From positions 1 through 25,459 of IMG/VR virus record IMGVR_UViG_3300009285_001165: DNA of 25,459 bases; one strand, given 5' to 3'. Shown one piece after another: positions 6,274 to 25,459 of this stretch (its first letter is position 1; each line of letters starts with the position of its first letter). The notes beneath the pieces were generated by a model, which was not told the origin of the DNA, did no database searches, and was given only the letters and a program-made list of their open reading frames with translations. Made by a program: the position numbers and the translations under genes. This stretch comes from a virus.

Positions 6274-7194
6274 ATGAGAAAAACGCTTTTCATTCTTGCT
6301 CTGATGCTGTCGCTGATTGCGGGACCACTCATCCCCGCGCCGGCCTTCTCCGCGGTGACGGCGGCCGGTTCTTTGCCGGCCAATATCACGGCGATCGCCA
6401 CAGACGGGACGTATAATTTTATAGGAACGGGAACCGGCAAAATCTACAAACAGACGGTTGCCGATTCAACCATCTCGACCACGCTGGTCGGTCAGGTTAC
6501 AGGGAAGATCACGTCCCTTACGATCGTCGGCACGTCCTTGTACGTCACCACCAGCGCGGGAAAAATCTACTATGTCGCTTCGGCGACTACGGGCGTCACG
6601 TTCACGCTGGGAGCGATTACGGACAACCTCATCGTCAACGCGGACATTAATTCCGCTGCGGCGATCGATGCTTCGAAAATCGGCGGGGGCGGGGTTTCGA
6701 CCACGGAATTCGATTACCTCGGCACGGTCACTTCCGATGTGCAAACGCAGATCGACTCGAAACAGGCGACGGTCACGGAAGGCTCTTTGACCGACTCCGT
6801 GATCGTCTCCGCGGATATCAAAGACAACACGATTGCAAAAGCAGACCTTCTTGAAAGCGCGTTTGCCGTGACAGTTCTCGACAACGTAGCTGGCCCTACG
6901 GCGGCACAAAGCTATGGAAGCCGGAACGTGGTCAACGCCGCCATCACTGTGACACTTCCAACAGCGGTAGCGGGAATGTCCATGTGCGTCGTCGATGTTA
7001 GTGGATCAGCCGATGACGTGATTATCGACGTTCAGGGAACCGATACCATCGCCTTGCTTGGCGCCGAAGATACGGCGGGAGACGGCATCACGAACGCCAG
7101 CGGAGCCTCTCTGGGGGATTTTGCTTGTGTGTTTGCTCGTACAGCGAACAAGTGGGTTGTTATGCAGCGACAAGGAACATGGGCTCAACAGTAA
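6274..7194 (+). CDS. Fibre-like phage protein with a Sec signal peptide
   Basis: The protein has 306 residues. It begins with a clear signal peptide: basic RK, then the hydrophobic LFILALMLSLIAGPLI, then a likely cleavage site after PAFSA near residue 27. Residues about 30-105 look like repeated beta strands (NITAIATDGTYNFIGTGTG, then SLTIVGTSLYVTTSAGKIYY), resembling propeller or beta-helix blades. Residues about 118-170 carry phrases common in phage tail fibres: NADINSAAAIDASKIGGG and STTEFDYLGTVTSDVQTQID. The C-terminal 100 residues resemble a domain seen in many phage fibre or head-fibre proteins, ending ANKWVVMQRQGTWAQQ. A signal peptide on a fibre-type protein is odd, because virions assemble in the cytoplasm. 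It could instead be an exported surface-modifying or exclusion protein. The family resemblance is from memory of such proteins, not a search. Confidence 0.85.
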   Translation: MRKTLFILALMLSLIAGPLIPAPAFSAVTAAGSLPANITAIATDGTYNFIGTGTGKIYKQTVADSTISTTLVGQVTGKITSLTIVGTSLYVTTSAGKIYYVASATTGVTFTLGAITDNLIVNADINSAAAIDASKIGGGGVSTTEFDYLGTVTSDVQTQIDSKQATVTEGSLTDSVIVSADIKDNTIAKADLLESAFAVTVLDNVAGPTAAQSYGSRNVVNAAITVTLPTAVAGMSMCVVDVSGSADDVIIDVQGTDTIALLGAEDTAGDGITNASGASLGDFACVFARTANKWVVMQRQGTWAQQ

Positions 7195-7200
7195 CGGAAA

Positions 7201-7225
7201 GGGAAGGGGGAGCAATCCCCCTCCC
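7201..7225 (+). promoter_or_regulatory. Stem-loop in repeat copy 1
   Basis: AGGGGGA at 7205-7211 pairs with TCCCCCT at 7216-7222 around a GCAA loop, a GNRA-type tetraloop. GGG at 7201-7203 can extend the stem with CCC at 7223-7225 across one bulged A. It starts six bases after the stop of the secreted fibre-like gene. The nearest T run lies about 40 bases further, so this is not a typical intrinsic terminator. Confidence 0.65.
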
Positions 7226-7277
7226 GCTTCGAAAAGGGGCATGCAAGGGAGAAAAAAGTGAGAAAGTTTTTTTGAAA

Positions 7278-7302
7278 GGGAAGGGGGAGCAATCCCCCTC
7301 CC
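7278..7302 (+). promoter_or_regulatory. Stem-loop in repeat copy 2
   Basis: This is an exact second copy of the upstream stem-loop: AGGGGGA, GCAA loop, TCCCCCT, with the same possible three-pair extension. It precedes the ribosome-binding site and GTG of the 37-residue gene and so lies in that gene's leader. Confidence 0.65.
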
Positions 7303-7334
7303 GCTTCGAAAAGGGGCATGCAAGGGAGAAAAAA

Positions 7335-7448
7335 GTGAGAAAGTTTTTTTGCAGAACAGGAATTCACCGCTGGCACTCGAAACACACTCATCTTGGAACC
7401 GCCTGGTGGTGTTCCTGGTGCGGAAAAATAGAAGAAACAGGAAGGTAA
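7335..7448 (+). CDS. 37-residue Cys/His/Trp-rich small protein (putative zinc-binding)
   Basis: The gene reads from GTG at 7335 to TAA at 7446-7448. The product is MRKFFC, then RTGIHRWHSKHTH, then a short stretch to WWCSWCGKIEETGR. The pattern C, GIHRW, then CxxC followed by GK is one I associate with small phage zinc-ribbon-like proteins, where one Cys or His near the start and the CxxC bind metal. GGGAG at 7324-7328 with six bases to the GTG is a good ribosome-binding site, and the next gene starts four bases after the stop. The start codon and first five codons lie within the second copy of the 77-bp repeat. Function is unknown. Main doubt: it is short and begins with GTG. Confidence 0.6.
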   Translation: MRKFFCRTGIHRWHSKHTHLGTAWWCSWCGKIEETGR

Positions 7449-7451
7449 TTC

Positions 7452-8099
7452 ATGAATTACGCGGAGCTGGCACAAGCGATCTGTGATTGGTCGAATAAAA
7501 GCTCGATCGACAAAGTTCTGCCGACGGTCATCCGGTTCGGCCAGAGGGACCTGGAGGACGATCTTAGGATCCGTCCAATGGAGTATCACCCCACAACGGC
7601 GAATGTCGCGGCAGCGGCCGCCTTGCTGGCACTCCCGTCGGATTACCTCGAGATGATCTACCTCCTTCTCATCAAGGATGGTGTTCGCTACCCGATCACG
7701 GTCCGGTCTTCTCCCGTGGAAATGTACTCGACGCAAATTTCCACCACGGAGACGGGGACCCCCTGCAGAGCGTCCAGGATAGCCGATGATCTGGTGTTCG
7801 ACGTTCTGCTGGACACCGCATACACCCGCGATTGGTGCTATTACCGGCGCCTTCCCGTGCTGACGGCCTCTACCACCGGGACGCCGATACCGAACACGAA
7901 TTGGTGGAGCGAGAATGCGGAGGAAGCGCTTCTCATGTCCTGCCTGAACAAGCTCTCCATGTACGTTTCCGGGATCCCGGAGGGCGACAAGAAGAAGTGG
8001 GCCGATGCTGCGCTCGAGACGCGAGAAAAGCTGAAGTTTAAGGAAGCTCGTGAAACGACGGGCGGCAACGTCCTTCGATCAACACCATTTTCGTTGTGA
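7452..8099 (+). CDS. Head-tail adaptor protein, SU10-adaptor-like
   Basis: The protein has 215 residues. The order of features fits the phage adaptor family typified by SU10: an N-terminal helical part with LPTVIRFGQRDLEDDLRIRPM at about 24-44, then ALPSDYLEMIYLLL, then SPVEMYSTQ, a central beta part with YTRDWCYYRRLPVL, then WWSENAEEALLMSCLNKLSMYV, and a charged C-terminal helix. These adaptors dock below the portal and link it to the tail nozzle, and bind with the portal's lower ring. No symbol is assigned. GGAAGG just upstream serves as ribosome-binding site. Position several genes after the capsid gene but ahead of the adhesin block is consistent. The assignment rests on motif pattern; a structure-based search would settle it. 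Confidence 0.78.
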   Translation: MNYAELAQAICDWSNKSSIDKVLPTVIRFGQRDLEDDLRIRPMEYHPTTANVAAAAALLALPSDYLEMIYLLLIKDGVRYPITVRSSPVEMYSTQISTTETGTPCRASRIADDLVFDVLLDTAYTRDWCYYRRLPVLTASTTGTPIPNTNWWSENAEEALLMSCLNKLSMYVSGIPEGDKKKWADAALETREKLKFKEARETTGGNVLRSTPFSL

Positions 8100-8110
8100 G
8101 GGGGAAGGTG

Positions 8111-8509
8111 ATGAAGAAGATCGTTCTCGCAGTTTTGGCTTTGACGCTGCTGGCGGCTTCGGCTTTTGGCTTCGACACTTACCGGCAATCGGCAACTCTC
8201 ACGGGCGGGGTCGTGACCGACAACACGACCGTCACCTTCACCCTTCGGCAAGGGGTCCCAAAGACGATGTACCTGTACGTTCCGACGATCGACTCCGCGG
8301 CGATCGCGCTTTCTTGCAGCGTGGACGGGACAAACTTCGGGACGATGGCCACGAATTACAGCGCGACGGCGCTCATTGATTTTACCTATGCGGCGACCAC
8401 GGGCGAGAAGGTTTTACGGCTACCGGATATCAGCCCGTGCCGGCTTTTGAAGATCACAGTCGGCGCTGCACAAGCGGCAAATCGAACTTTCGTCGTGTTC
8501 GGAAATTAA
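8111..8509 (+). CDS. Small secreted protein of unknown function (Sec signal peptide)
   Basis: The product has 132 residues from ATG at 8111. An in-frame GTG at 8096 would add five residues, but the GAGGGGAAG motif upstream fits the ATG better. The N-terminus MKKIVLAVLALTLLAASAFG is a textbook signal peptide, probably cleaved after ASA near residue 18. The mature part, about 110 residues, is Thr/Val/Ala-rich and probably all-beta, with TVTFTLRQGVPKTMYLYVP and DISPCRLLKITVGAAQ; two Cys (in SCSV and SPCR) could form a disulphide if it reaches the periplasm. It resembles small phage structural proteins that read per-subunit beta domains, but carrying an export signal. No named family recognised. 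Confidence 0.8.
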   Translation: MKKIVLAVLALTLLAASAFGFDTYRQSATLTGGVVTDNTTVTFTLRQGVPKTMYLYVPTIDSAAIALSCSVDGTNFGTMATNYSATALIDFTYAATTGEKVLRLPDISPCRLLKITVGAAQAANRTFVVFGN

Positions 8510-8520
8510 GGAGTTCAATC

Positions 8521-9549
8521 ATGGCATTCCTCTCCGGATGGCTGTACCGCAAGCCCGTCACCCTTTCGAGGGCCTCCGGAGCTGTCACCAACTACCAGAT
8601 GAAATTGAAAGTAGGGGAGAGCGCCGGCGCCACAGGTGAAGATGTCGACTGTGGCGGGAAGTGCAAGGCTGATTTCTCGGACCTCCGGTTTACGGCCGCA
8701 GACGGCACGACACTTCTCGACTACTACATCGAGGACGTCTCCGGCGCCACGCCGAACCAGCTTGCGACCATCTGGATAGAATTCGACTCCATCGGCACGG
8801 GCGACACGACTTTTTATATGTACTACGGGAACGCCGGCGCCTCGGCCGTGAGCAACGGGCCGAATACCTTCATCCTGTTCGAGGATTTCAACGCCCTCAC
8901 GAATGGGGATCTCAACGGACAAAATGGGTGGTCGGGACACGTTTATTTTGACGTGGAATCCACGACGAAATATGAGGGCGCGAAAGCAGTTGCGACAGCC
9001 GCTGGTGGAAGCACTGTAAATGCTTGGAAGACATTTGCGGCCGCCTCATCGTGGAGGGTATTCATACAGGCAAGGCTTCGATCTTCCTCAGCCGGTTCCG
9101 CTTCCGAGGCACAGATAAACATCAACGAAGGGACAAATGCGATTACAGCCGTGCAGATCGCCGCCGGTCAATTCAAGGCGTTGGTTTCTCCCCCGTCGTG
9201 GGTCAACATCGGAAAGGCCGCATCGAGCAATATTTGGTACAAGATAATGATAGCTTTGGATTCAACGACCACACATAAAACTTGGGTTGACGACACCCTT
9301 TATACCCCGGCGAATGTTTCAAATGTGAATACGGTTTCATCTGTCGCCGACAGGAGCCAACTGGAACATTATGCGGCTGGTGGAACTGACTTTTTCGACC
9401 AAATAATGGTTGGGTATTATCTCCCTACCGGCCCCGCCTGGGGCGTCTGGGGAGGCGAGGAAGAATCTTCCTTTGCCGGGCCTTTTCAATTTTTTTCGAT
9501 AGAGCAGCCGTTGGCGTTTCTTCACAAGAAGCAAATCGTGGGCTACTAA
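8521..9549 (+). CDS. DUF2341 and lectin-like adhesin (putative tail fibre or receptor-binding protein)
   Basis: The protein has 342 residues from ATG at 8521, with AAGGAG just before; the longer open frame upstream is not used. Residues about 7-115 are a recognisable DUF2341 domain: WLYRKPVTL, then YQMKLKVG, DFSDLRFTAADGTTLLDYYI, IWIEFDSI, TFYMYYGNAGAS and SNGPNTFILFEDFN. Residues about 120-310 look like a concanavalin A-type (LamG-like) beta sandwich, with WKTFAAASSWRVFIQARL and WYKIMIALDSTTTHKTWVD. The end, ALFLHKK-like, is short and basic. DUF2341 commonly occurs in extracellular bacterial and archaeal proteins that bind sugars or surfaces. In this block the protein is a strong candidate for host-surface recognition. 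Sugar specificity cannot be inferred. Confidence 0.85.
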   Translation: MAFLSGWLYRKPVTLSRASGAVTNYQMKLKVGESAGATGEDVDCGGKCKADFSDLRFTAADGTTLLDYYIEDVSGATPNQLATIWIEFDSIGTGDTTFYMYYGNAGASAVSNGPNTFILFEDFNALTNGDLNGQNGWSGHVYFDVESTTKYEGAKAVATAAGGSTVNAWKTFAAASSWRVFIQARLRSSSAGSASEAQININEGTNAITAVQIAAGQFKALVSPPSWVNIGKAASSNIWYKIMIALDSTTTHKTWVDDTLYTPANVSNVNTVSSVADRSQLEHYAAGGTDFFDQIMVGYYLPTGPAWGVWGGEEESSFAGPFQFFSIEQPLAFLHKKQIVGY

Positions 9550-9568
9550 CCCAAAGGGGGAAAGCGCA

Positions 9569-10024
9569 ATGGCAAGAAGCTATGGAATTGGTGGAAGTGC
9601 GGCGGTCGGAAGTGCCTCGTATCCACAGTTGATGATCTACATGGCGACGGCCGCGGGAATCCGGCCGAAGATTTACGAATTTCTTGTGAGCTCGTCGGCA
9701 TCGCCAGCCGACAATGCCTCGCAGTTCCAGATCGCTCGGACCACGACCGCAGCGCCGACGGGAGGATCAAATCCAGCGATCGCTCCGCTGGACCCCGCGG
9801 ATCCCGCTTCCCTGGCGACCTCGTACCTGTCGGCCACGGGCGGGTTGACCCTCTCGACGATTCTGATGATCGTTGCCGTCAACCTTCGGGCGACCTTCCG
9901 GTGGGTGGCAGCGCCGACGAAGGAATTTGTGATTCCCAATACGCAGTACGCTGGCGCCGGGATCCAGTCGGCGGCGCAGACGGCCGCGTACAACGTCGAT
10001 ACCTCCCTCTATTGGGAGGAATGA
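9569..10024 (+). CDS. Conserved phage virion protein of unknown function
   Basis: The product has 151 residues with no signal peptide. The phrase SSSASPADNASQFQIARTT, followed by PLDPADPASLATSYL, is a pattern I recall from small proteins in virion gene clusters of diverse tailed phages, probably subunits of tail or head surface structures. The fold is likely beta-rich with a mobile N-terminus rich in Gly and Ser. AAGGGGG precedes the ATG. Its stop overlaps the next start (ATGA), so the two genes are coupled. Exact location in the virion is unknown. Confidence 0.75.
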   Translation: MARSYGIGGSAAVGSASYPQLMIYMATAAGIRPKIYEFLVSSSASPADNASQFQIARTTTAAPTGGSNPAIAPLDPADPASLATSYLSATGGLTLSTILMIVAVNLRATFRWVAAPTKEFVIPNTQYAGAGIQSAAQTAAYNVDTSLYWEE

Positions 10025-10275
10025 TGTTCAACGCAACCGCGCGGAAGCCGGCCGGGAACGTCCTCATCACCGAACCGGGGATGCCGGCAAAGGAATTCGA
10101 CACGCTTCAATGTGTCCATTGTGGCGGTCAATGGCAAGTCGTTCCCGGTTCGGGGATCCTTCGGGGTTTCTGCACCCGCTGTCACGGACCTTTCTGTGGG
10201 CCTCAATGCTCGAAGTGCATCCCGCATGAGAAGTGGCTTGAGCAAATGGAGCGCCAAGGGGTGAAGCGGCCGTAA
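10021..10275 (+). CDS. Cys-rich zinc-binding small protein
   Basis: The gene starts at ATG 10021 by ATGA overlap with the previous stop and encodes 84 residues. Eight cysteines are arranged as CVHC at 31-34, CTRC at 51-54, C59 and CSKC at 63-66, with His at 33, 55 and 69 nearby. This can make two zinc sites: C31, C34, C51, C54 and C59, C63, C66, H69. The PGSG loop between the first CxxC pairs and the CGPQCSKCIPHE end are a pattern I recall from a small conserved phage protein. It sits among virion genes, so a structural zinc-stabilised virion component is more likely than a transcription factor, but this is inference. The stop overlaps the next start as TAATG. Confidence 0.8.
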   Translation: MMFNATARKPAGNVLITEPGMPAKEFDTLQCVHCGGQWQVVPGSGILRGFCTRCHGPFCGPQCSKCIPHEKWLEQMERQGVKRP

Positions 10276-10745
10276 TGCCTCTCATGTGGCAATATCAGAT
10301 TCTCGCAGAGCTTCCTCCGGCCAACAGCCTGACCGGAGGATGGGAAGAAAACATTACGCTCGACAAATGGGTACCCAGGCTCCCCGATATCCGGTTCCAG
10401 CTGAAATATCTCTCGGAAGCGATCATGCCGGATATTTCGACGGAACCCCGGATGGTTTCGTGGCTCGAGAGAATGACGCCGGACAAGTGGGAGCCCTGTC
10501 TTCCGGCAAGGCGTTACGAGAGGGCATACCTTCCAGCCCCGAATCAGCCGTATTTTACCGTGGCCCCGCTTCTGTCGTGGGTGCCGTTCATCGACAAGTG
10601 GGGGCCGGCTCTCCCGGCGAGGCACTACGAAAAAGCATACCTGACGGCGGCGATCATGCCACAGGGGGCGCACCTGGAAAAGCCTTGGTACGACGGGAAT
10701 GCAGCACTGAGGTTCATCCTTGACAAGGAAAAGACCCGATTTTAG
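10275..10745 (+). CDS. Repeat protein with three 37-40-residue DKW units
   Basis: The product is 156 residues, starting at the TAATG overlap. Three internal repeats are visible, each with a Trp, about eight residues, then DKW, then xPxLP, an Arg or similar, an aromatic and a second YL or AYL. DKW lies at 30-32, 70-72 and 107-109. Units 2 and 3 are closest: DKWEPCLPARRYERAYL and DKWGPALPARHYEKAYL. Unit 1 has diverged to DKWVPRLPDIRFQLKYL. The spacing of about 37-40 residues suggests tandem duplication of a small motif. The family is unknown to me. A virion surface or host-contact role is inferred only from the neighbours. Confidence 0.8.
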   Translation: MPLMWQYQILAELPPANSLTGGWEENITLDKWVPRLPDIRFQLKYLSEAIMPDISTEPRMVSWLERMTPDKWEPCLPARRYERAYLPAPNQPYFTVAPLLSWVPFIDKWGPALPARHYEKAYLTAAIMPQGAHLEKPWYDGNAALRFILDKEKTRF

Positions 10746-10766
10746 ATGTATCGGAGGGAATCCGGA

Positions 10767-11147
10767 ATGAAATATAAAATCCTCATCACATCCTGCATAT
10801 TTCTCCTGCTGGCGACTCTTGCCTACGCCCTGAATTCCACATTGAAGCGGGATTCGTTCGGTGTGTCGATTCAGGGCGCCTTGCGACCGGCCGTCGCGCA
10901 GAAACTTGGTTTCTACACCACGACGGACAACGCCGTGAACTCCGCGGATTTCCAGTATCCCGTGATCGAAATCACAGCGACGAAGGATTGCTTCTACAAA
11001 CTCGGCGACAATACCGTGATCGCTACGGACAACGATTATTTCTTGCCGGCGAATCAGCCGAAATGGGTCATCGTTGGTACGAACGTGCGGATCGGGGCTC
11101 TTGGAGCTACGGACAATGGAGTGCTTTACATCATGGAATTGTACTGA
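10767..11147 (+). CDS. Small secreted virion-cluster protein (Sec signal peptide)
   Basis: The product has 126 residues from ATG 10767. The in-frame ATG at 10746 would add seven residues ahead of the signal sequence and lacks a ribosome-binding site, whereas CGGAGGGA at 10752-10759 sits properly before 10767. The N-terminus MKYKILITSCIFLLLATLAY is hydrophobic after two Lys, with probable cleavage after AYA near residue 21. The mature part is beta-rich: YPVIEITATKDCFYKLGDN, then FLPANQPKWVIVGTNVRIG, ending GVLYIMELY. Similar short proteins without a signal peptide occur in phage structural clusters. The export signal is therefore the odd part. Confidence 0.8.
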   Translation: MKYKILITSCIFLLLATLAYALNSTLKRDSFGVSIQGALRPAVAQKLGFYTTTDNAVNSADFQYPVIEITATKDCFYKLGDNTVIATDNDYFLPANQPKWVIVGTNVRIGALGATDNGVLYIMELY

Positions 11148-11159
11148 TCGGGGGGCGAG

Positions 11160-11738
11160 ATGGCGAACGTAAAGAAACTCGGTACGTCGAAGATCGTCCC
11201 GGGGAATACCGTCTACTGCATCATACGGAGGGAGCTCGATGATTTCCGGCTGGACGACGCTGACGGCCTGACGTTCGCTGCGGCTCCTGCGGATCCGTAC
11301 GTTTCCCTGACAGAAGATTCCGCCATCAAGGGGCTGTATGAGGTTTCCGAATCTCGTGTCGCGTGGAACGACGGTCGGTACAGGGCATTCATCTACATCC
11401 AGTCAGGGGCTTCTCCGGCTCCGGTAGATGACGCCCTTGTGGATCAGATGGACTTCTGGGTGCTTGGGGATCTGATTGTCAACGCCGTCCCTTGGGAAAC
11501 CGGCACAGTGCAAACCGACGCCGCGAATTCGACGATCTCCTTCAAGACCGACCTTGCCTCTACAACCGACGGATATTGCAACGGCTCTTTCGTCAAGTTC
11601 ACCAGCGGCGCGCTCATCAACCAGACCAAGAAGATCGCCACACCCGGATACGGGGGAACGTCGAAGCTTTTGCAGGTGACTTCCGGCTTCACGGAGATCC
11701 CCGCGGTGGGGGATCGGTTCATCATCATCAATCAGTAG
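11160..11738 (+). CDS. Two-domain phage virion protein (possible fibre or collar component)
   Basis: The product has 192 residues. The N-terminal domain (about 1-105) reads KIVPGNTVYCIIRRELDDF then LSLTEDSAIKGLYEVSES-like strands ending FIYIQSGASPAPVDD, a pattern I recall from phage structural clusters. The C-terminal domain (about 115-192) contains TVQTDAANSTISFKTDL, FVKFTSGALINQTKKI and GFTEIPAVGDRFIIIN; the FTSGAL phrase followed by a PAxGD turn is widespread in phage fibre and tail-surface proteins. No signal peptide. GGGGGGCGAG precedes the ATG. The two-domain layout suggests a virion-anchoring N-terminus and an exposed beta module. Exact role is unknown. Confidence 0.78.
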   Translation: MANVKKLGTSKIVPGNTVYCIIRRELDDFRLDDADGLTFAAAPADPYVSLTEDSAIKGLYEVSESRVAWNDGRYRAFIYIQSGASPAPVDDALVDQMDFWVLGDLIVNAVPWETGTVQTDAANSTISFKTDLASTTDGYCNGSFVKFTSGALINQTKKIATPGYGGTSKLLQVTSGFTEIPAVGDRFIIINQ

Positions 11739-11748
11739 GGGGGGCGAC

Positions 11749-12240
11749 ATGGCGATCATCGCGGCGAACCTGGCTTTCTACCTGACCGGGGGGGCTGGGA
11801 ACGCTCTCCCCGCCGCGTCCCTCGGGGGGGATATCTCGAATACGGCCTTCACGGACAACACCCTTCAAAACCTGTTTGCCAACGTCACGCCGGCCGAAGC
11901 CCTTGCGGGAAGCGTGAAGTACAGGGCCCTGTCGTTCAAGAACCTCGCCGCGGAGACGGCGTACGCCGTGGTGATCTATATTTCACAAGAAACAACCTCG
12001 GCCGACACGACTGTGGCGATCGCCTTCGATTCGACCGGGACACAGAGCGTAGTTGATGAAGATACAGCGCCGGTCGGCCTTTCCTTCTCGACGCCCCTTT
12101 CCTTGGCCGCAGGGATCGCCCTTGGGGATGTCGCCGCCTCGGGGGTGGCACGGGTGTGGTTCCGAAGAACAACAAGCGCTGGCGCGGCCCAGGCAAGTGA
12201 CACGGGCAAATTTGCCGTGACCGCGGGATCGGCACCATAA
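11749..12240 (+). CDS. Conserved phage virion protein (beta-sandwich, possible decoration protein)
   Basis: The product has 163 residues with no signal peptide. Phrases such as NLAFYLTGGAGNALPAASLG near the N-terminus, then FANVTPAEALAGSVKYRALS, then AYAVVIYISQETTSADTTVA, and near the end RVWFRRTTSAGAAQASDTGK match a small virion protein pattern I recall from many tailed phages, where it is probably a beta-sandwich on the capsid or tail surface. GGGGGGGCGAC precedes the ATG, nearly the same initiation region as the previous gene. It is the last GC-rich gene before the AT-rich island. Function beyond virion association is inference. Confidence 0.78.
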   Translation: MAIIAANLAFYLTGGAGNALPAASLGGDISNTAFTDNTLQNLFANVTPAEALAGSVKYRALSFKNLAAETAYAVVIYISQETTSADTTVAIAFDSTGTQSVVDEDTAPVGLSFSTPLSLAAGIALGDVAASGVARVWFRRTTSAGAAQASDTGKFAVTAGSAP

Positions 12241-12561
12241 ATGTCATTCTATCTGCTTCGTGATGAATACCAGATTTTGCAGGAGAAAACTGCGAAGTGG
12301 AATATATGGGGTGTAGTTTCCAAAGAATTCACGTTCCTTGAAAGCATATATAGCGCGGTTAGCAACAACTTCACGCTCAGATATAATATCATGTTCTATG
12401 TTTCCCGTGAATTTACGTATCTGTGGGATATATGGATATACGTTGCGAGAGAGTTTACTTATCTGTATCGGATCGCGATAGATTACAGCGCACGGGTTAA
12501 ATATAATTTCTCGAAATCTGGCGTTGTAACACGGTTTTTCAGGAGAAATCGCGTTGGCTGA
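12241..12561 (+). CDS. Phage protein built of 14-residue repeats
   Basis: The gene begins immediately after the previous stop (TAAATG) and encodes 106 residues. From residue 21 to 90 it is five consecutive 14-residue units, for example NIMFYVSREFTYLW and DIWIYVAREFTYLY. Each has an I or aromatic near the start, a V at about position 6 and F-T at about 10-11. Such short repeats occur in small proteins of phage tail clusters and could make a stacked beta structure. It is very rich in Tyr, Phe, Trp and Ile. No good ribosome-binding site precedes it, so it is probably translated by coupling. Base composition drops sharply here compared with the preceding gene. Function unknown; tail or fibre role inferred from position. 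Confidence 0.75.
   Translation: MSFYLLRDEYQILQEKTAKWNIWGVVSKEFTFLESIYSAVSNNFTLRYNIMFYVSREFTYLWDIWIYVAREFTYLYRIAIDYSARVKYNFSKSGVVTRFFRRNRVG
12301..12510 (+). repeat. Five in-frame 42-base coding repeats
   Basis: Units begin at 12301, 12343, 12385, 12427 and 12469 and encode the 14-residue repeats of the gene above. Units 3 and 4 are the most alike at the protein level. The last unit (RIAIDYSARVKYNF) is degenerate. Nucleotide identity between units is only moderate, so the array is old or under protein-level selection. Confidence 0.75.
12541..12545 (+). promoter_or_regulatory. Ribosome-binding site deciding a TTG start
   Basis: AGGAG lies eight bases before TTG at 12554, inside the end of the previous gene. 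No ATG or GTG occurs at a suitable place in this frame, so TTG is the likely start of the FN3 protein gene. Confidence 0.65.
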
Positions 12562-13297
12562 TCCCGTTCTTTCGGCGGTGTTGTCCGGGCAAAGGGCGAT
12601 AGCCTTGTCGTGGACGTTTGATAGCAACGCTGATTTTCAGGTGTTCTGGAAATCGAATGTTCCGGCAGGGCAGGAGTACGTCCTCCTTGCAACGACAAAT
12701 GCTTTTTCGTATACAACCCCGGACCTTGAGGCGTCGAAAACATATACCTTCTATGTCCGAGCAAATACAATAAATTCATTCTTTTACAGTAACGTTGTGG
12801 AGTTATTCGTGTCGTGTGGAAAAGGAGTTGTACTTACAGCAGACCCACCGACAAGCCCTAACCCGCAAATTAAAACGGTCCCGACAAACGCAGTTGGATT
12901 CAATAATCCGGTATCGGGTCAAAATATCCCTCCTTTTTATGAAGGAGCAAATGGAGGCGAAAACCTGGTTTTTCCCGGGTTTACTTTTCCATTAATAGCT
13001 CAAATACATGATAGTAATGCAAGCGGAATCCAATTATTAGTTACACCAGAAGATGCTGTATACGAATTAATGGGCACAACATCAATAAAAATAACATTCT
13101 ACGTACAAGCGAGAGGGCAAGGCCTTGTTTCACAAAGTGCTGGATATGATTTCAGGTTCCGCTATGAACACGCAGACTTGACGAATGATTACTCTAATTG
13201 GCTTGTTCAGCCAGCCATGGCCGGGAATAATTTTTATAGAGAATTTTCAATGGAAATTACCCTGACAGACGTTGATTTAGTATTATTGGGGGCATAA
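12554..13297 (+). CDS. FN3-domain protein in the AT-rich island (putative adhesin)
   Basis: The product has 247 residues from TTG 12554, overlapping the previous gene by eight bases. Residues about 5-88 are an FN3 domain: AIALSWTFDSNADFQVFWKS, then YTTPDLEASKTYTFYVRANT. The C-terminal 150 residues are unrecognised but beta-like, with a Pro/Asn-rich linker (ADPPTSPNPQIKT) and a sequence running through FRFRYEHADLTNDYSNWL to a hydrophobic end. Codon use is AT-rich with many A- or T-ending codons, unlike all flanking genes. Fibronectin type III domains are common in phage tail and fibre proteins and often bind carbohydrate or protein surfaces. This looks like a swapped host-range gene, which is inference. 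Confidence 0.78.
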   Translation: MADPVLSAVLSGQRAIALSWTFDSNADFQVFWKSNVPAGQEYVLLATTNAFSYTTPDLEASKTYTFYVRANTINSFFYSNVVELFVSCGKGVVLTADPPTSPNPQIKTVPTNAVGFNNPVSGQNIPPFYEGANGGENLVFPGFTFPLIAQIHDSNASGIQLLVTPEDAVYELMGTTSIKITFYVQARGQGLVSQSAGYDFRFRYEHADLTNDYSNWLVQPAMAGNNFYREFSMEITLTDVDLVLLGA

Positions 13298-13888: not shown

Positions 13889-13889
13889 A

Positions 13890-15359: not shown

Positions 15360-15371
15360 AGGAGGAACACG

Positions 15372-15920: not shown

Positions 15921-15923
15921 GCC

Positions 15924-17777: not shown

Positions 17778-17790
17778 GGGGAGGGAAATC

Positions 17791-18873
17791 ATGGCAGAAC
17801 TCGAAGGAACAATGTCGAGTGGAAGAATTTTAAAGGAGTGGTGGGAACGATTCGGTAAAAGACCGGAACTCGAACGGACTTCTCCCCCGCTGAGCTCCGG
17901 TATTCTGGATACTACAGCGCCAGCACCGTCAGTTCCGACACCCACGGAAGCATCTCCCGTCGTCCCGCCAGAGGCACCTGACGTCATGCCCCCCACGGAA
18001 GAGAGAAATGTTGGAAGCAAGTGGACCGATCGTTTAGCCGCCGGACTGCAAGATCCCTCAAAGGTCGGATTGCTGACAGCTGGCCTGTCGATAATGGCGA
18101 CTCCGCCGCGTGAAACCCGGTACAGCAACACGGAAGTGCTCGGCCGCGGAGGGCTGGCCGGAATTCAGGCATTCCAGAATGCCGTGAAGTCTTCACGCGA
18201 GGCGAAGGCGCTGGATCTGAAGCAGGAGGAGAATAAGCTCACGCGCGAAGGCCTGAGTGCGTATCGCAAAGCGCAGATTACAAACATGCAGGACCAGCGG
18301 AGGCTCGAAGAGGAGCGGATCAATACGCTGGGCGAGCTGCGCGCCGACAGGCAAGCGGAGATACAGGCGCTCACGGCGAACGCAAGGGCGCTGGACGAAC
18401 AGGTCCCCCCGGAGATTCTTTCGAAGGTCGGCCTGGCAGAATTCACGGGGAAGATGACGTACCGGCAGCTCAAGGAGGCTCAGGGAGCCCTCACGGCAGC
18501 CATGAGACCGGCCCCGATGACGGTGACGACAGACAAGGATGGCACGGTGCACGTCATTCCGAAGGTGGCTGGCGAATATCCCGGCGCTGGCAAGCCCAAA
18601 CGTCCACCGGCGGGGGCCAAGGGGGCACGCCCCACGACTCCGCAGTGGCAGGAACAGCGCGCGGAGCAATCGCTGAAGGAGCAGGGTATCTTGAAGCCAA
18701 CGGTGGCACAGATCGCGGCGGAGAGGACAAAGTTGTTCCCGAAAGGAGCGGGGAAAGCCGCATCTGTCAGCCCGAGGGCCGCGCTCCGCGGAGGATCTAC
18801 CGCGGCCGGAGAAGAAAAAGTGGTGAACGGGAAAACGTATGTGAAGAAGGACGGGCAGTGGTATGAGAAATGA
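17791..18873 (+). CDS. Coiled-coil internal virion protein
   Basis: The product has 360 residues. After a Pro/Ser/Thr-rich linker (about 30-70) comes LLTAGLSIMATPP at about 94-106 and LGRGGLAGIQAFQNAVK at about 117-133, a phrase common in phage internal virion and transglycosylase-type proteins. A charged helical region follows (about 135-205, e.g. REAKALDLKQEENKLTREGL and QRRLEEERINTLGELRADRQ). A C-terminal part ends NGKTYVKKDGQWYEK, a small motif often at the end of such proteins. No catalytic motif is seen. GGGGGAGGG precedes the ATG. The stop overlaps the start of the 1828-residue gene (ATGA). It is likely injected or lines the internal core with its neighbours; that is inference. Confidence 0.7.
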   Translation: MAELEGTMSSGRILKEWWERFGKRPELERTSPPLSSGILDTTAPAPSVPTPTEASPVVPPEAPDVMPPTEERNVGSKWTDRLAAGLQDPSKVGLLTAGLSIMATPPRETRYSNTEVLGRGGLAGIQAFQNAVKSSREAKALDLKQEENKLTREGLSAYRKAQITNMQDQRRLEEERINTLGELRADRQAEIQALTANARALDEQVPPEILSKVGLAEFTGKMTYRQLKEAQGALTAAMRPAPMTVTTDKDGTVHVIPKVAGEYPGAGKPKRPPAGAKGARPTTPQWQEQRAEQSLKEQGILKPTVAQIAAERTKLFPKGAGKAASVSPRAALRGGSTAAGEEKVVNGKTYVKKDGQWYEK

Positions 18874-21800
18874 ACCTGGTAACTGACCCCGAGATCCTGA
18901 GACAGCTCGACGCGGCGCCAGCTCTCCGACCGGTGACGGATCCTTCCGTCCTCGAGGAGCTGAATTCCCCGATCACGTCTAAGCTGAAGCGGGCCGGTGG
19001 ATTCCTTCGGGACTATTACGAATACCTCCATCAGCCCACGGAACCCCCAAAGATGCTGCCTCTACAGCCGGGCGAGGAGGATTTGGATCCTCGATCTGTC
19101 GGTAACATGGACGTCCCCTCGTCAGACTTCCTGGGGAGGGTGTTGCCTGAGAGCGTCAGCAAAACCGCCGTGGGGCTCGCGGAATTCCCGCTCATCGCCG
19201 GGCACGACATTGGAACGGTCATCCAGAGGAAGCTCATCGAGCAAGGCAAACCGTCGGAAACGGTCTCCGCGATCAGCTCCAAGCTGGGGGACATGATAAC
19301 CGGCGTCCTCGACAAGACCCTCGCGTCGACCGGGCTCATGGGGAAGGAACGGCTGAAGGAGGAGTGGTCGACCGACCCGGCCGGATCGGCGCTCTTTGCT
19401 GCTGCGCCGGTTGCAGGTGCGGTCGGGAAAGGTGGAACTCTTGTCAAGCGGGGACTCGAGCGCGCAGCGGAGCGGAAAATGGCCGCCGCCCGGGAGAAAA
19501 TGGCCGCCCCGAAGTGGGATCTGGCCCCAGGAGAGGGAAAGGGCCCATGGGAGGGAGCCGCACCTGCGCCTGTCGTCGAACCACCCCGCCCCGCTGAAGC
19601 TGCGGCACCCCCTGTCGAGGCGCCCCCGCCGGCGAGGGCTGAGGTATCCCCCACACCCCCTGCGGCCGTTGTAGAGGCTCCTGCTGCGCCGGAAGCCAGC
19701 GTAACCCGTCGGCGGGTACGTCCGGACCGCTCCTCGTTCGCGGAAGGCCAGGTCCCCGACATGGCAACCCTTGAGAACGACCTGAAAGCCGTAAGGGATA
19801 ATCTTTCTGAAATGGAGACGGAGTACGCGAAAGGGGACGTGGGAAAGACCCAATTCGACCAGATGGCCCTGTCCGACCGGATCAAGGCGTATCGTGAGTC
19901 GGAATCGGCGCTACTGGAGCGGCAGAAGCAGCTCGAGGCCGGTATCCCCGCTCCGGAAGTGAAGATCGAGCCCGCCAAGCCGGCCAGGGAAAAGACCGAG
20001 GCTGAGATCAGCTTCGAGAGGGCCAGGGAGGAGCGGGGCCCGGTCCCAAGGTCCGGAGAGGCGCCGGCACTTGGTACGCCTGACTTCTATAAAGCCGAAG
20101 CGGCAAAACTGCCAGGAGATGTGAAGTATATCGGGGACATGGCTGGCCACCCCATGTTCGAGAGCGGGGATTATGCCAAAGGTGGAGTCGGAAACTTCAT
20201 GGCGAAGCCCGGGGAGAGCGTCGAACAAGCGTACGCTCGCGCGAAATCGAAGTACGACGCGGCAACGGCTCCTACAGAGGCGCCGGCACCCATAGAGCTG
20301 CCGAAGAAGAAGTCTCGCCCTCCGTTCAAGGGAAAGAAGGAGCAATCCCTGCAACAGCGTATCCTGAAGGCCGGGGGGATCAAGATCGACCCGGCCATGC
20401 GCGGAGAATTCGCGCAGTATGGTCTCCGCCAGGGGGGAGGAGCCCTTGCCCGTCTGTATCGTAGCGAGCGGCATCCCGGCTACAAGAAGGCGATGGGCTG
20501 GGATCAATGGGTCGAGGCGCTGATCGAGGACGGCACCCTGCAACCCGGCGCCGGCATATCCGATCTGTTCGAGGCGATCAAGAAGAATCGACGCCCTGGA
20601 AGCTTCAGCGAGGATGAAATCGCGGCTGCCGGAGAGGAGTACCTGCGTAAACAGGCTGAAGGAGAAGGCCCGCGGCCGATCACGGACCCAGAGATCCTGA
20701 AACAGCTCGAAGCACCGGCGGAGGGGCCACAGTTGGTACCCGCGAATCGTGTGGACGGGGAAGTATACAAGGCTCCGCCAGGCACCACGACACACGCCGG
20801 CGTCGACATGCCGGACGAAGCCTGGGGCAAGGTGGGGACCGGAGCGAAGATAGAGACCGGATGGTACGACTACAAGACCGACAAGTTTATGACCGCCAAC
20901 GAAGGGAAGGCGCTCCTCGAGGATCATTCCTTCAAGCTGGCAGAGGAGCCAGTGCCCGAGGGGGCTCCCAGGGGGGAGTACCAGCCTCCCGCCGCTGCCG
21001 ATCAGGCAATCTTCCCGGGGATGGAACAGGCACGGCAGCAGTACCGCGAACCCGGCGTGAAAGCTCCGCCGGAGCCTCCGCCGGAAGGCGGGCTGTTCGG
21101 AAAATCTCCGCCGGCAGCGGGAAAGGATACCTCCGCGGAGTGGAAGAAGGCGGGGCTTGACATCCCAAGGGGCGAGATCCCGATCCCCGACTCGAAAACG
21201 GGACTGCTTGGGAACGAGTCCGGGCAGCTCAACGTCTCCGCGCTGCTGCCGGCGATCGAGATGGGGCGGGACATTAAGGAGGGCGCGCAGTCGCTCCTCA
21301 TGCCGTCGTCGCTGTCTCCAGAGCACAAGGCCGTCGCTGAGATCCTGGGGGCTAAGATCGGCACGATGCACCGTGCGCTCGAAAGTTCCGCACGGCTACT
21401 CAAGGAAGATAGCCGGATGTTCGACAAAGCCGGGGTTTTCGATGCGAAGGTCCCGCTGAAAGACAACATGGGCGTGAAGTTTATGTCGGATATGTCCGCC
21501 GGACGGAAGATGAGCCCGGAGCTGCAGAAGATCGCCGACAAGATCCGCGGGCAATTCGACGAGAGGATACGCCGTCTATCCGAAGCTGGAGCTCCGCTGA
21601 GTAAGGTGCGTGAAAACTACTTTCCTGGCATGTGGAAGGATAAGACCGCCGCGGAGCGGTTCCTGTCACGCCGTCCGTTCAAGGGAGGGGAGTCGTTCCG
21701 GAAGCCCAAGGTGTTCGACGACACCATGGAGGGGATCGAAGCCGGCCTGGAGCCCATTTCCCCAAATCCGATCGACCTGGTGATGTTGAAATTCGCGGAG

Positions 21801-24356
21801 ATCGACCGTTCCATCATGGCGAACGAAGCGCTGCGGGAATTTCGTGGCACCGGGCGGGAGAAGTTCCTCAGCGTGTTCAAGAAAATGCCGGAGGGTTGGG
21901 AGAAGGTCAACGATAAATACGGCACGGTCTACGGGCCCCCGGAGATCCTGATGCGGGAGTACGTCGACAAGGCCGTGTACGACGGGCTGCTGAAGGTTGC
22001 CGACAACCTCGGCGTCACGCATGAGCGGAAGATGAACGCCGGCCGTGGGAAGTTGGGCTGGTCGAGTCCAGGTGGTCAGATGGTCACGCAGTTCGCCACC
22101 GACACGCAAGTCCTGGCGCATGAGATCGGGCACCAACTTGATTTCAAATACAAGCTGTGGGATCGGATCGTCACCCAAGCGGAGGGGATCGGCGCGAAGG
22201 GCACCGTGACGAAGACAGCATCGGCCCAGCAGCGGGGCCTGGTCCAGAAGGAGCTGCGCGCCTTGGCCGACATGAGCTTCGAGGGCGAGACTCCTTCTGC
22301 CTACTACAAATCGAAGGTCCGCAAGAAAGCGGAGAAGATGGCGCACATGCTCGAGGCGTACATCCACGCGCCGGAGATGTTCAGGGAAGTGGCGCCGAAC
22401 GTCTATGATTCGTTTGACGCATTCGTACGGTCGAAGCCGGGCGCTGCCGGAACGCTGCCGTTCGCCAAGCCGCTGCCAGAGATCGCCGGCCTGGCCGACA
22501 TCAAGCCGCGCCTGGCGCTAAAGGAACTGCAGAACAAAATGCCCGTGGGCGGGTTCCCGGTCGTCGGGCACCGTATCGTAACGCACGCGACGGCCGACGT
22601 TCTGAATAATTACCTGTCCAGCAGCCTGTACAACAATCGGTACGTGGGGACCGCCTTCAAGGCGTGGATGGGCACCGCGAACGCCCTCAACCAGACGCAG
22701 CTGGGCGTCTTCAGCATGTTCCATGGCGGGTTCACCGAATTCGAAGTGCAAGTATCCGCTGGCGCGAACGTGCTCCATGACGTGTACGGAGTAGCTAAGG
22801 GAAATCGCACCTTCGGGGACCTCGGACGCTCGATCGCGCATGTTCCCCAGGCGATGATCCGTACTCCCATCAACGGCGCTAAGATTCTGAACGAGTGGCA
22901 ACGTCCGACGATGCACGTACCGACGAATGTGTCTATCGGTTCCCTGCCTCAGACGCCGGCCGCGAGGGTGTCCATGATCGCCAAGGCAGCGGAGATCGCC
23001 GGCGGAGGGTTCGAGATGGAGAGGGGACTTCGGACTCACCAGATCGATAAGCTGGTCCGCGATTGGTACGGCGGGAAGAAGCTCAAAGCGGCGCTCCGCT
23101 CGCCTATCGCGCTCACGGAGCTGGGGGCGAAGCCGATCATGGAGTGGCTGGTCCCTCGCCAGAAGGCGGGGATCTTCGGGGAGATGGCCGGCCGGATCAT
23201 CGAGCAAAACCCCGGTAAATCGCTCGAAGAGCTGCGGCCTCAGCTACGGAAGACGTGGAACGATGTGGACGCGCGGCTCGGACAGGTGCGGTATGACCGG
23301 CTGTTCATCAACAACGTGGCGAAGAACGCGCTGCAGGGGCTCGTCCGGGCTCCGGGGTGGACTGGCGGCACGATCGCGCAGATCGGCGGCGCGATCCCCG
23401 ACACGGCCCGCTTCTTCAAAGAGTGGGCGAAGACCGGGAAGGCGCCTGAGAACATCCCGCCTCGAGTCGCGTACACCATCTCCTTGGCCGTCACCACGGC
23501 AGCGATCAATGGGATCCTGACCTACGCCTTCACCGGGCAACGTCCGCAGGGGATGGATTTCTGGGCCTTCAGGGACGGCAGCACGGATGAGGCTGGCCGG
23601 CCTGGCCGGTTCCTGCTGCCAACGTACGCGAAAGACGTGTATGCCTGGTACAAGAAGCCAGGGCACACGGCGCTCGCCAAGACGCATCCGGCGCTTTCCG
23701 TCGTAGGCGACCTGATCCGGAACACGGACTATTACGGCACAGTTATTGCAAACCCTGACGACCCCTTTCCTCAGCGTCAAGGCGAGAGGGCGAAATACGT
23801 GGTGAAGTCGTTCGTCCCGTTCTGGATGCGCGGTGCCGGTAAAGTGATCGAGCGGGAAGGTGGCGCAGCATCGGCTATGACGAAGGCTCCGGAGAAGGTT
23901 CTGGCTCCGCTGGTCGGTATCATGCCGGCGACGTCGGCCTATACCCGCACGCCGGCGGAGAAGAAGATGTCGGATATCATACGGAGCCATGCACAGATCG
24001 GGGGACGCACAAAGGAAGCCGCGGAATACAGCCAGCTTCGGTTCTCAGCGCTCAAGCATCTCCGTTCCGGGAAGACCTGGGAGGACATGCCGGGCCCGAT
24101 GGCGGACAAGCTGCTGAAGCTGTCGGACGCCAAACTGCGGAAGATCGCCACGGATGCTCAGAGCACGGCGCTCCAGACATCCTTCTCCAGACTTACGGCA
24201 AACGAGGCGCTGAAGGTCTGGAAGCTGATGGAAGATAAGGAGCGAGCTGAAGTGGAGGACGTATACAATAAAAAGCTGGAGAACCACGCGAAGGATATGA
24301 CCGACGAGGAGCATGCGGATTTTAAGAAACTTGTCGAAAGGGCGGAGGCGAAATGA
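18870..24356 (+). CDS. Giant virion-associated protein with embedded HEIGH metallopeptidase domain
   Basis: The product has 1828 residues, occupying over a fifth of the window. The N-terminus holds two TDP repeats (LVTDPEILRQLD, PVTDPSVLEELN) and a third copy near 600 (PITDPEILKQLE). A Pro/Ala-rich linker lies at about 215-282 and a charged helical part around 285-370. The middle, around 790-1010, reads like large polyvalent phage proteins, with NYFPGMW near 916-922 and LEPISPNPIDLVMLKFAEID. A zinc peptidase motif HEIGH is at 1084-1088, with Glu about 1162 in MLEAYIHAPEMF as probable third ligand (gluzincin type). A hydrophobic helix lies near 1535-1555. By position it is the T7 gp16 equivalent, probably injected; the peptidase may cut envelope or virion proteins. 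Function is inference. Confidence 0.85.
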   Translation: MNLVTDPEILRQLDAAPALRPVTDPSVLEELNSPITSKLKRAGGFLRDYYEYLHQPTEPPKMLPLQPGEEDLDPRSVGNMDVPSSDFLGRVLPESVSKTAVGLAEFPLIAGHDIGTVIQRKLIEQGKPSETVSAISSKLGDMITGVLDKTLASTGLMGKERLKEEWSTDPAGSALFAAAPVAGAVGKGGTLVKRGLERAAERKMAAAREKMAAPKWDLAPGEGKGPWEGAAPAPVVEPPRPAEAAAPPVEAPPPARAEVSPTPPAAVVEAPAAPEASVTRRRVRPDRSSFAEGQVPDMATLENDLKAVRDNLSEMETEYAKGDVGKTQFDQMALSDRIKAYRESESALLERQKQLEAGIPAPEVKIEPAKPAREKTEAEISFERAREERGPVPRSGEAPALGTPDFYKAEAAKLPGDVKYIGDMAGHPMFESGDYAKGGVGNFMAKPGESVEQAYARAKSKYDAATAPTEAPAPIELPKKKSRPPFKGKKEQSLQQRILKAGGIKIDPAMRGEFAQYGLRQGGGALARLYRSERHPGYKKAMGWDQWVEALIEDGTLQPGAGISDLFEAIKKNRRPGSFSEDEIAAAGEEYLRKQAEGEGPRPITDPEILKQLEAPAEGPQLVPANRVDGEVYKAPPGTTTHAGVDMPDEAWGKVGTGAKIETGWYDYKTDKFMTANEGKALLEDHSFKLAEEPVPEGAPRGEYQPPAAADQAIFPGMEQARQQYREPGVKAPPEPPPEGGLFGKSPPAAGKDTSAEWKKAGLDIPRGEIPIPDSKTGLLGNESGQLNVSALLPAIEMGRDIKEGAQSLLMPSSLSPEHKAVAEILGAKIGTMHRALESSARLLKEDSRMFDKAGVFDAKVPLKDNMGVKFMSDMSAGRKMSPELQKIADKIRGQFDERIRRLSEAGAPLSKVRENYFPGMWKDKTAAERFLSRRPFKGGESFRKPKVFDDTMEGIEAGLEPISPNPIDLVMLKFAEIDRSIMANEALREFRGTGREKFLSVFKKMPEGWEKVNDKYGTVYGPPEILMREYVDKAVYDGLLKVADNLGVTHERKMNAGRGKLGWSSPGGQMVTQFATDTQVLAHEIGHQLDFKYKLWDRIVTQAEGIGAKGTVTKTASAQQRGLVQKELRALADMSFEGETPSAYYKSKVRKKAEKMAHMLEAYIHAPEMFREVAPNVYDSFDAFVRSKPGAAGTLPFAKPLPEIAGLADIKPRLALKELQNKMPVGGFPVVGHRIVTHATADVLNNYLSSSLYNNRYVGTAFKAWMGTANALNQTQLGVFSMFHGGFTEFEVQVSAGANVLHDVYGVAKGNRTFGDLGRSIAHVPQAMIRTPINGAKILNEWQRPTMHVPTNVSIGSLPQTPAARVSMIAKAAEIAGGGFEMERGLRTHQIDKLVRDWYGGKKLKAALRSPIALTELGAKPIMEWLVPRQKAGIFGEMAGRIIEQNPGKSLEELRPQLRKTWNDVDARLGQVRYDRLFINNVAKNALQGLVRAPGWTGGTIAQIGGAIPDTARFFKEWAKTGKAPENIPPRVAYTISLAVTTAAINGILTYAFTGQRPQGMDFWAFRDGSTDEAGRPGRFLLPTYAKDVYAWYKKPGHTALAKTHPALSVVGDLIRNTDYYGTVIANPDDPFPQRQGERAKYVVKSFVPFWMRGAGKVIEREGGAASAMTKAPEKVLAPLVGIMPATSAYTRTPAEKKMSDIIRSHAQIGGRTKEAAEYSQLRFSALKHLRSGKTWEDMPGPMADKLLKLSDAKLRKIATDAQSTALQTSFSRLTANEALKVWKLMEDKERAEVEDVYNKKLENHAKDMTDEEHADFKKLVERAEAK

Positions 24357-24391
24357 AAATAGCAACAGAGCTTGGGTGTATTGATTAATGC

Positions 24392-24397
24392 GAAGGG
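24392..24397 (+). promoter_or_regulatory. Ribosome-binding site deciding the endolysin start
   Basis: GAAGGG lies seven bases before ATG 24405. It supports this start over the in-frame TTG at 24372, which has no such site and would add eleven residues ahead of the GH108 domain. Confidence 0.55.
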
Positions 24398-24404
24398 ACA
24401 TGTT

Positions 24405-24875
24405 ATGCGAGAAAATTTCAATACTTTTATAATTAATTTAAGGGAATTTGAGGGATTCAAGAGCAATGACCCCGACGATCCTGGTAAGCGTACAATATAC
24501 GGGATCTCGGAATATTATCACCCGGAGATGTATCCCGGGGGGAAAGAGCCGACCTGGGCGCAAGCGGAAGCCTTCTATCTTCGTCTGTGGATCGCCAACG
24601 GCTGTGACGATCTCCTTTCTCCCGTTGATTGGATTCATGGCGATTCCTGCGTCAACCCGGGCCCAGGGGCGGCCAAGGGCTTCCGGATGTGGAGCGCGGA
24701 GCATAAAGACCCAACGAGACAATCGGTGGAGTACGCGGTGTTGCGGCTCCGTTATTACCTAAAAGTGGTCAGGCAGCGGCCGGTGTCATTGAAGTACCTG
24801 GCCGGCTGGATGGACCGAACCCTTGATTTCCTCGAACGCGGGGTGATCACAACCTGGGACATGGAGGTTTTATGA
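24405..24875 (+). CDS. GH108-type endolysin (muramidase, ZliS-like)
   Basis: The product has 156 residues. It should cleave peptidoglycan glycan strands at the end of infection. The N-terminus carries LREFEGFKSNDPDDPGKRTI followed by YGIS, matching the GH108 start in which the Glu of EGG-Y is catalytic; here the second Gly is Phe (E16, G17, F18). The middle AFYLRLWIANGCDDLLSPVD is the YW-type segment, and DSCVNPGPGAAKGF matches the VNxG helix. The C-terminus carries a helical domain (RLRYYLKVVRQRPVSLKYLA) as in this family. No signal peptide is seen, so it should need a holin. Its stop overlaps the next start (ATGA). Activity depends on how the EGF change is tolerated. Confidence 0.87.
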   Translation: MRENFNTFIINLREFEGFKSNDPDDPGKRTIYGISEYYHPEMYPGGKEPTWAQAEAFYLRLWIANGCDDLLSPVDWIHGDSCVNPGPGAAKGFRMWSAEHKDPTRQSVEYAVLRLRYYLKVVRQRPVSLKYLAGWMDRTLDFLERGVITTWDMEVL

Positions 24876-25210
24876 AAAAGCTGATCGTTCTTCTCGCGCT
24901 GTTCGTCGCAACAACGTCGTTCGCCTGGACGGTCTCCTGGGACCCGACCACCACGTACACGGACAACACGGCAATCGAATCAACGAAACTCCCGGTCAAG
25001 TATGAGATCAAGAAGGACGGGGCGATCCTCGTAACAGGAACGACCGCAACCTCCTTTGCGTTCACGGACACCGGCCACGGGCTGACCCGCTCTTTCACGG
25101 CGACGGCCACGCTGCAGACCGGAGAGGCATCGGCGGAGTCGCCGGCCTACTCGTGGACCGTCCCTTTGGGGGCGCCCCGGACCCCGGGAAATCTCCGGGT
25201 TGCTCCGTAA
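24872..25210 (+). CDS. Secreted FN3-like small protein in the lysis cassette
   Basis: The product has 112 residues from ATG overlapping the endolysin stop. The signal peptide MKKLIVLLALFVATTSFA is clear, with cleavage probably after SFA. The mature 94 residues look like one FN3 or Ig-like domain: WTVSWDPTTTYTDNTAIEST, then VKYEIKKDGAILVTGTTA, then FAFTDTGHGLTRSFTATATL, then SAESPAYSWTVP, ending GAPRTPGNLRVAP, which resembles the start of a second FN3 unit or a linker. No Cys or lipobox and no transmembrane helix after the signal, so it is unlikely to be a classic spanin. It could act in the periplasm. Function unknown. Confidence 0.8.
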   Translation: MKKLIVLLALFVATTSFAWTVSWDPTTTYTDNTAIESTKLPVKYEIKKDGAILVTGTTATSFAFTDTGHGLTRSFTATATLQTGEASAESPAYSWTVPLGAPRTPGNLRVAP

Positions 25211-25233: not shown

Positions 25234-25459
25234 ATGGAAGAGATCCTGAAACTGCTCGTTAACGCGGACACGGCGATGGTGGCCGTCACCTTCGCGCTTT
25301 GCCAAGTGGCGAAGCGGATGCTCCCCTCCCCGCCCCCGGAGGTCCCCGGCGCTCCGTATAGTCCGTGGGCGGTTATTGAGCGGCTGGCGTGGGTCCCCTT
25401 CGCGCTGGCGTTCGTCGTCGGCGTGGGTCTGTCGATGGCGTTCGACCAGCACGTGGGGC
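25234..25459 (+). CDS. Two-helix membrane protein, holin candidate (cut by the window end)
   Basis: Seventy-five codons are visible with no stop before the window ends. The translation starts MEEILKLLVNADTAMVAVTF and has two hydrophobic stretches: about 12-26 (AMVAVTFALCQVA) and about 51-69 (AWVPFALAFVVGVGLSMAF). A Pro-rich loop, LPSPPPEVPGAPYSPW, separates them. Location right after the endolysin and the secreted FN3-like gene makes a holin likely, since the endolysin lacks its own export signal. Length and charge pattern at the C-terminus cannot be judged because the gene is truncated. Alternatives are an antiholin or an unrelated small membrane protein. Confidence 0.6.
   Translation, partial: MEEILKLLVNADTAMVAVTFALCQVAKRMLPSPPPEVPGAPYSPWAVIERLAWVPFALAFVVGVGLSMAFDQHVG

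Follow-up and report, generated by a model that had tools for sequence, protein, structure and literature searches.

Four genes of an environmental phage encode products that, judged from their sequences, are very likely exported by the Sec pathway and cleaved by signal peptidase I, and the way in which these export signals are conserved indicates that they are under selection. The genes lie in a single IMG/VR virus record of 25,459 bases (the window, meaning the whole stretch of DNA analyzed). They probably represent two things: SP1, SP2 and SP3 (starting at positions 6274, 8111 and 10767) belong to the fibre region, and SP4 (24872) belongs to the lysis cassette. The first-pass annotation had placed all four in one virion and lysis gene cluster; this location is confirmed, but within it SP4 is separated from SP1–SP3. 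The standard view is that assembly of tailed-phage virions is completed in the cytoplasm, and in our literature searches we found no account of tailed-phage fibres that bear signal peptides, in agreement with the earlier view that this set is a candidate undescribed system.

The window encodes terminase, portal, major capsid, adaptor and nozzle-type proteins. The major capsid protein (4684–5763, + strand as for all window features given here; phrog_334) is the N4-gp56-type of Bcep22-like podoviruses and is 46% identical to that of Burkholderia phages. Since the gene order also matches that of BcepIL02, we conclude that the window is a fragment of a Bcep22-like podovirus; the capsid type, the portal and the synteny all agree with this assignment. 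As in the cultured members of this group (Lessievirus BcepIL02 and JC1; Skulduggery, Pavtok and POI1126), the order is terminase, portal, major capsid protein, decoration gene, adaptor, fibre region, nozzle, acetyltransferase and internal proteins. Unlike the window, six cultured relatives have no strong signals on virion genes. A host search found capsid relatives in bacterial and archaeal genome contigs that are only 29–48% identical.

Signal peptides were called with our own rule-based scorer (not SignalP), which requires a positive n-region, a hydrophobic h-region and small residues at -3 and -1. Run on the 27 window products, it flagged exactly the four genes for which clear signal peptides had been claimed, with scores of 4.89–5.50; one further CDS had any signal score at all (2.17). 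The four predicted products each combine a positive n-region, a hydrophobic core and small -3/-1 residues with no lipobox, as for Sec/signal peptidase I substrates, and each gene has an ATG start and a purine-rich ribosome-binding site. The signal-coding regions are 6274–6345 in SP1 (MRKTLFILALMLSLIAGPLIPAPA followed by FSAVT, with predicted cleavage after residue 24–27), 8111–8170 in SP2 (20 aa, predicted cleavage between AFG and FD), 10767–10829 in SP3 (21 aa, between AYA and LN) and 24872–24925 in SP4 (18 aa, between SFA and WT).

At a threshold of ≥4.8 the scorer gave positives for 1 of 4,400 shuffled N-termini and for none of 6,373 internal windows. Among real genes, signals were found on 14 of 263 in the window clade, compared to 1 of 730 in unrelated IMG/VR fibre loci, 6 of 542 in proviral relatives from bacterial genomes (several of the bacterial-genome relatives are MAG contigs) and 1 of 224 in the six cultured relatives. 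Clear scores in the cultured relatives were limited to SAR endolysin, Rz/Rz1 and annotated gp40, with fibre gp62 borderline at 3.97. These low rates rule out the signals being an ordinary trait of Bcep22-like phages. Among 5'-complete homologues, a signal was present at 22/22 SP1 loci, 25/25 for SP2, 10/10 for SP3x (a second family at the SP3 position, described below) and 8/8 for SP4, in a sample of relatives that are not independent, with many fragmentary contigs and simple ORF calling. Good ribosome-binding sites and conserved starts rule out start-site error as the source of the signals. A dual-start cytoplasmic form is also ruled out, as none of the genes tested contains an internal start codon accompanied by a ribosome-binding site.

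SP2 provides the clearest view of how a signal is retained. Across the family, signal peptides average 45% identity and vary in length from 20 to 26 aa, compared to 76% identity in the mature part, where dN/dS relative to the window is ~0.1–0.25. The cleavage motif nevertheless stays in register before the conserved mature start, with A or G at -1 and A, S or C at -3 in 23/23 distinct proteins. When drift to 40–60% identity was simulated under neutrality, a scored signal survived in 5–27% of cases.

The SP2 gene (8111–8509) encodes, after its scored signal, a 112-aa domain with paired cysteines that is predicted by AF2 to be a beta-sandwich (pLDDT 79). Both cysteines are present in 18 of the 23 proteins, neither in four and one in a single protein. 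Structure searches with the model gave weak PDB matches, with CBM32/discoidin-like folds among the top ones (best E 2.7e-3); BFVD matches were mostly uncharacterized phage proteins of ~100–130 aa (best E 7e-5). The SP2 sequence had no convincing match in the PDB, Pfam and PHROG searches found no family for SP2, SP3 or SP4, and no SP2 homologue was found among 84,980 bacterial and archaeal species genomes. SP2 occurs with two capsid families, phrog_334 and phrog_283, suggesting that it faces the host rather than docking to the capsid.

SP1 (6274–7194, score 4.89) consists of a signal peptide (~24–27 aa), a partial beta-propeller (aa ~27–105), a fibre-shaft module (aa ~115–182) and a C-terminal domain. 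For the small SP1 relatives (144–153 aa) the structural model shows three propeller blades (pLDDT 85), and a cysteine pair is invariant in 13/13 of them. The best PDB match of this model is the designed protein Ika4 (E 9.5e-7), which we take to be a half-propeller, suggesting that the small SP1 family forms oligomers. The shaft module occurs at about 79 unrelated viral loci, almost none of them with a signal, and a weak signal score was found for 1 of 80 complete shaft-module ORFs elsewhere, which rules out the signal being an ordinary property of shaft modules. SP1 is the only one of the four with a fibre or spike module recognizable in its sequence. Of the beta-rich structural or FN3-like character that had been attributed to the mature parts, the beta-rich or fibre-like side is supported, with a fibre module in SP1 and a predicted beta-sandwich in SP2; SP4 had no Pfam FN3 match and its likeness to FN3 is weak.

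SP3 (10767–11147, score 5.07) has a mature part of ~105 aa and is known solely from the near-identical contigs L006 and L007. This position holds SP3 in the closest relatives of the window and the unrelated, signal-bearing SP3x (~183 aa) in many others.

The arrangement is fixed: decoration gene, SP1, adaptor and SP2 in one region, and endolysin, SP4 and holin in the other. SP1 fills the gap between the decoration and adaptor genes in 17 of the 18 loci that cover it (the exception is G005), and SP2 follows the adaptor throughout the window clade. In the window, SP1 and SP2 are separated by an adaptor-type virion protein (7452–8099) that matches phrog_2941. Co-occurrence in relatives, which had been proposed as a check, is conserved, and it extends to a P22-like genome, G011 (capsid phrog_283, gp10-type nozzle phrog_578), in which an SP1-type signal-bearing fibre, SP2 and SP4 recur. 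As G011 has a P22-type capsid, the set is not bound to one capsid family. Fibre-type genes with no signal are also present in the window, namely an FN3-like gene at 12554 and a DUF2341-domain protein adjoining SP2 (8521–9549; PF10102, E 2.3e-18); the latter shows that non-exported fibre-type genes stand alongside exported ones.

Two other features of this region were observed. A 77-nt unit is perfectly duplicated in tandem between SP1 and the adaptor (7197–7350), with a hairpin-like core GGGGGAG...CCCCCTCC; it may represent a terminator-like element or an artefact of assembly. An 83-aa protein with seven cysteines, zinc-ribbon-like (10024–10275), lies in the fibre region and has ~90% identity to its counterparts in G005, G007 and L023.

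Signals also occur on canonical fibre and spike genes of other phages. The G011 spike combines a signal, an intact anchor domain (phrog_26190) and a pectate-lyase domain (PF12708). It is the sole anchor-domain spike of G011 and lies, as in P22-like phages, after an internal protein and before the endolysin. Contig L031 has a second signal-plus-anchor arrangement. The anchor domain is the same as in P22-like spikes and fibres (Rhodoferax phage P26218, Xanthomonas phage PBR31 and Vibrio phages). However, the unsignalled homologues begin at or near the anchor, whereas in the G011 and L031 proteins a signal of ~30 aa precedes it. None of 94 other anchor proteins (10 cultured, 84 IMG/VR) carries a signal, and the 0/84 among IMG/VR ORFs rules out an ordinary trait of anchor modules. 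The signal trait is systematic in the window clade and nearly absent from large samples of shaft and anchor modules. It was too strong to assume that fibre-like proteins, if exported, cannot belong to the virion, given signalled genes in canonical fibre and spike loci, one of which keeps a virion-anchor domain.

Further examples come from other groups, two of them contigs that may be incomplete (G012 and G013). The fibre and lysis region of G003 encodes four proteins with signals, two of which give weak beta-helix or CBM-like matches. G012 (L300, 13443–18822) has a contractile-tail baseplate operon encoding gp25, Baseplate_J (gpJ), a 928-aa signalled protein, Tail_P2_I (gpI) and a 359-aa signalled protein whose match to a Gp53-like fibre C-terminus falls just below threshold; no fibre gene besides these two is evident in this possibly incomplete contig. 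G013 (L302/L303, record positions 33808–45484 of a 58.5-kb virus contig) has a cluster of five Cys-rich signalled proteins (1,988, 244, 577, 290 and 544 aa). Pooled over 20 signal-bearing proteins, cysteine content is 1.52 per 100 aa, compared to 0.44 and 0.40 in other virion proteins of the window and G013, 0.12 in unsignalled fibres and 0.71 in unsignalled spikes. This is ~3.5 times the content of other virion proteins in a pool dominated by one genome, G013, and fits folding in an oxidizing compartment. A search of the cultured-phage collection found no homologue of SP1, SP3x, SP4 or the 522-aa G003 spike. We also observed, in L278 (3038–3418), a signalled version of a small protein whose G003 and G011 forms have an N-terminal hydrophobic segment (ADWxQTR motif).

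If particles are built inside the cell and the export signals are real, the fibre-like proteins must work outside the cytoplasm. The explanation that we place first, while rating it somewhat short of probable, is that exported and cleaved SP1–SP3 appendages fold in the periplasm and join or act with virions at lysis, and that SP4 is a separate periplasmic lysis protein. Host Sec machinery would export all four products, with cleavage by signal peptidase I, a step for which the sequences argue strongly. SP1–SP3 would be appendage-type proteins of the fibre region, presumably expressed late with the virion genes, and would fold in the periplasm, partly with disulphide bonds. When lysis opens up the inner membrane, their most likely fate would be to bind virions or to work jointly with them, which is the least certain step, and part of the appendage set would thus mature outside the cytoplasm. 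We lean towards late joining because the genes that carry signals include canonical ones for spikes and fibres, and in one of these the anchor is intact. The use of the SP1 shaft module by unsignalled fibres elsewhere is consistent with virion joining, while the unsignalled fibre-type genes in the same window, and the little time that lysis leaves for assembly, count against it.

Receptor masking or superinfection exclusion is a close second, as SP2 crosses capsid families and precedents exist, although we still rate it unlikely. Here the exported domains would bind or strip the phage's own envelope receptor, shielding progeny from debris and blocking re-infection. The SP2 sequence is kept across capsid families, the SP3 position is variable, and the modelled CBM-like (SP2) and propeller (SP1) folds would suit binding. 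A signalled pectate-lyase spike could also trim surface polysaccharide from inside. Exported phage proteins with such a role, though of a different fold, include T5 Llp, a periplasmic, disulphide-bonded protein that blocks FhuA (PMC9586334), and T1-type Cor, with a similar exclusion role (PMC13164509). Like the SP proteins, Llp and Cor are small, phage-encoded and exported. However, they are lipoproteins that target FhuA, whereas SP1–SP4 have no sequence link to them and no lipobox cysteine; neither the window proteins nor the SP2 homologues have a cysteine at +1 of their predicted cleavage sites, which argues against Llp/Cor-type anchoring. Furthermore, exclusion proteins are described as early-expressed (PMC9586334) and the SP genes lie in a late virion cluster, and masking leaves the retained anchor domain in G011 and L031 unexplained.

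It is improbable that the proteins are free secreted effectors, that is, adhesins or polysaccharide-binding or -degrading proteins freed at lysis to act on matrix or neighbouring cells. Signalled proteins with carbohydrate-active or -binding domain matches in G003 and G011, and the weakly CBM32-like SP2 fold, are in keeping with such a role, but the window proteins have no catalytic domain, and fibre modules and fixed sites beside virion genes point to a virion or receptor role. Decidedly improbable is that the genes are lysogenic-conversion morons, expressed from a prophage and altering the host surface like lambda lom and bor. Lom and Bor are also phage-encoded exported proteins, and Lom is encoded beside tail genes; however, Lom is an outer-membrane barrel and Bor a lipoprotein, whereas the SP proteins are fibre or lectin-like beta domains. 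Related Bcep22-like phages do carry a recombinase gene and one that resembles a repressor (PMC9144972), but no separate promoter/terminator unit was established, the SP genes are packed within the late cluster, and the genome search that found no SP2 homologue also speaks against prophage carriage. Finally, that the hydrophobic N-termini are virion anchors or tolerated relics is highly improbable: the scorer is home-made and export is predicted from sequence, but in-register cleavage motifs, signal drift with features kept, cysteine pairs and cysteine enrichment all oppose it.

Returning to late joining as the preferred reading, a broader version is that several unrelated tailed-phage lineages route fibres or spikes via Sec, with periplasmic disulphide folding and addition to virions only at lysis. 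We consider this doubtful at present. At least four environmental groups that are unrelated to one another keep signals on fibre or spike genes. This would mean either that assembly includes an extracytoplasmic step or that it is common for phages to export copies of their receptor-binding domains as a way of controlling the host surface, and either meaning bears on how fibres are annotated and host range is predicted for uncultured phages.

SP4 (24872–25210, score 5.50) has a ~94-aa mature domain, possibly FN3-like, and looks like a lysis-cassette protein separate from SP1–SP3; its position suggests a small periplasmic protein. It lies between the endolysin (GH108; 24372–24875; PF05838, E 4e-9; phrog_315) and a holin-position ORF that is cut by the window end (25234–25458), assigned by position and with no PHROG match. 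SP4 relatives lie close to endolysin or holin genes in G001, G002/G003, G007 and G011, and the G005 copy is in a lysis-type gene group; these carriers are different phage groups. One variant among the signalled relatives scores low, at 4.08. SP4 has no cysteines. A Pfam search found no fn3 match above cut-off, and an SP4 profile gave weak PDB and genome matches and nothing stronger, including just two weak domain matches among 277 genomes from the class to which a Geobacter MAG belongs. A cultured phage, Rhodoferax phage P26218, also has a small protein with a signal-like N-terminus (4.38) between its spike and lysis genes (gp24; L184, 13739–14248), for which no relative in other phage records and no sequence relation to SP4 were found. 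The internal virion protein adjoining the lysis cassette (18870–24356) is 1,828 aa long, and its relatives in G005 and G007 are 1,904 and 2,943 aa. SP4 was considered as a spanin and ruled out: its sequence has neither an Rz/Rz1 pair nor a lipobox plus C-terminal TM segment, and an Rz-like gene is present separately in G007 and G011. In both of these genomes the Rz-like gene is followed by a coiled-coil protein with a signal-like N-terminus (G007, 28028–28438; G011, 10939–11373), which is possibly an unusual outer spanin.
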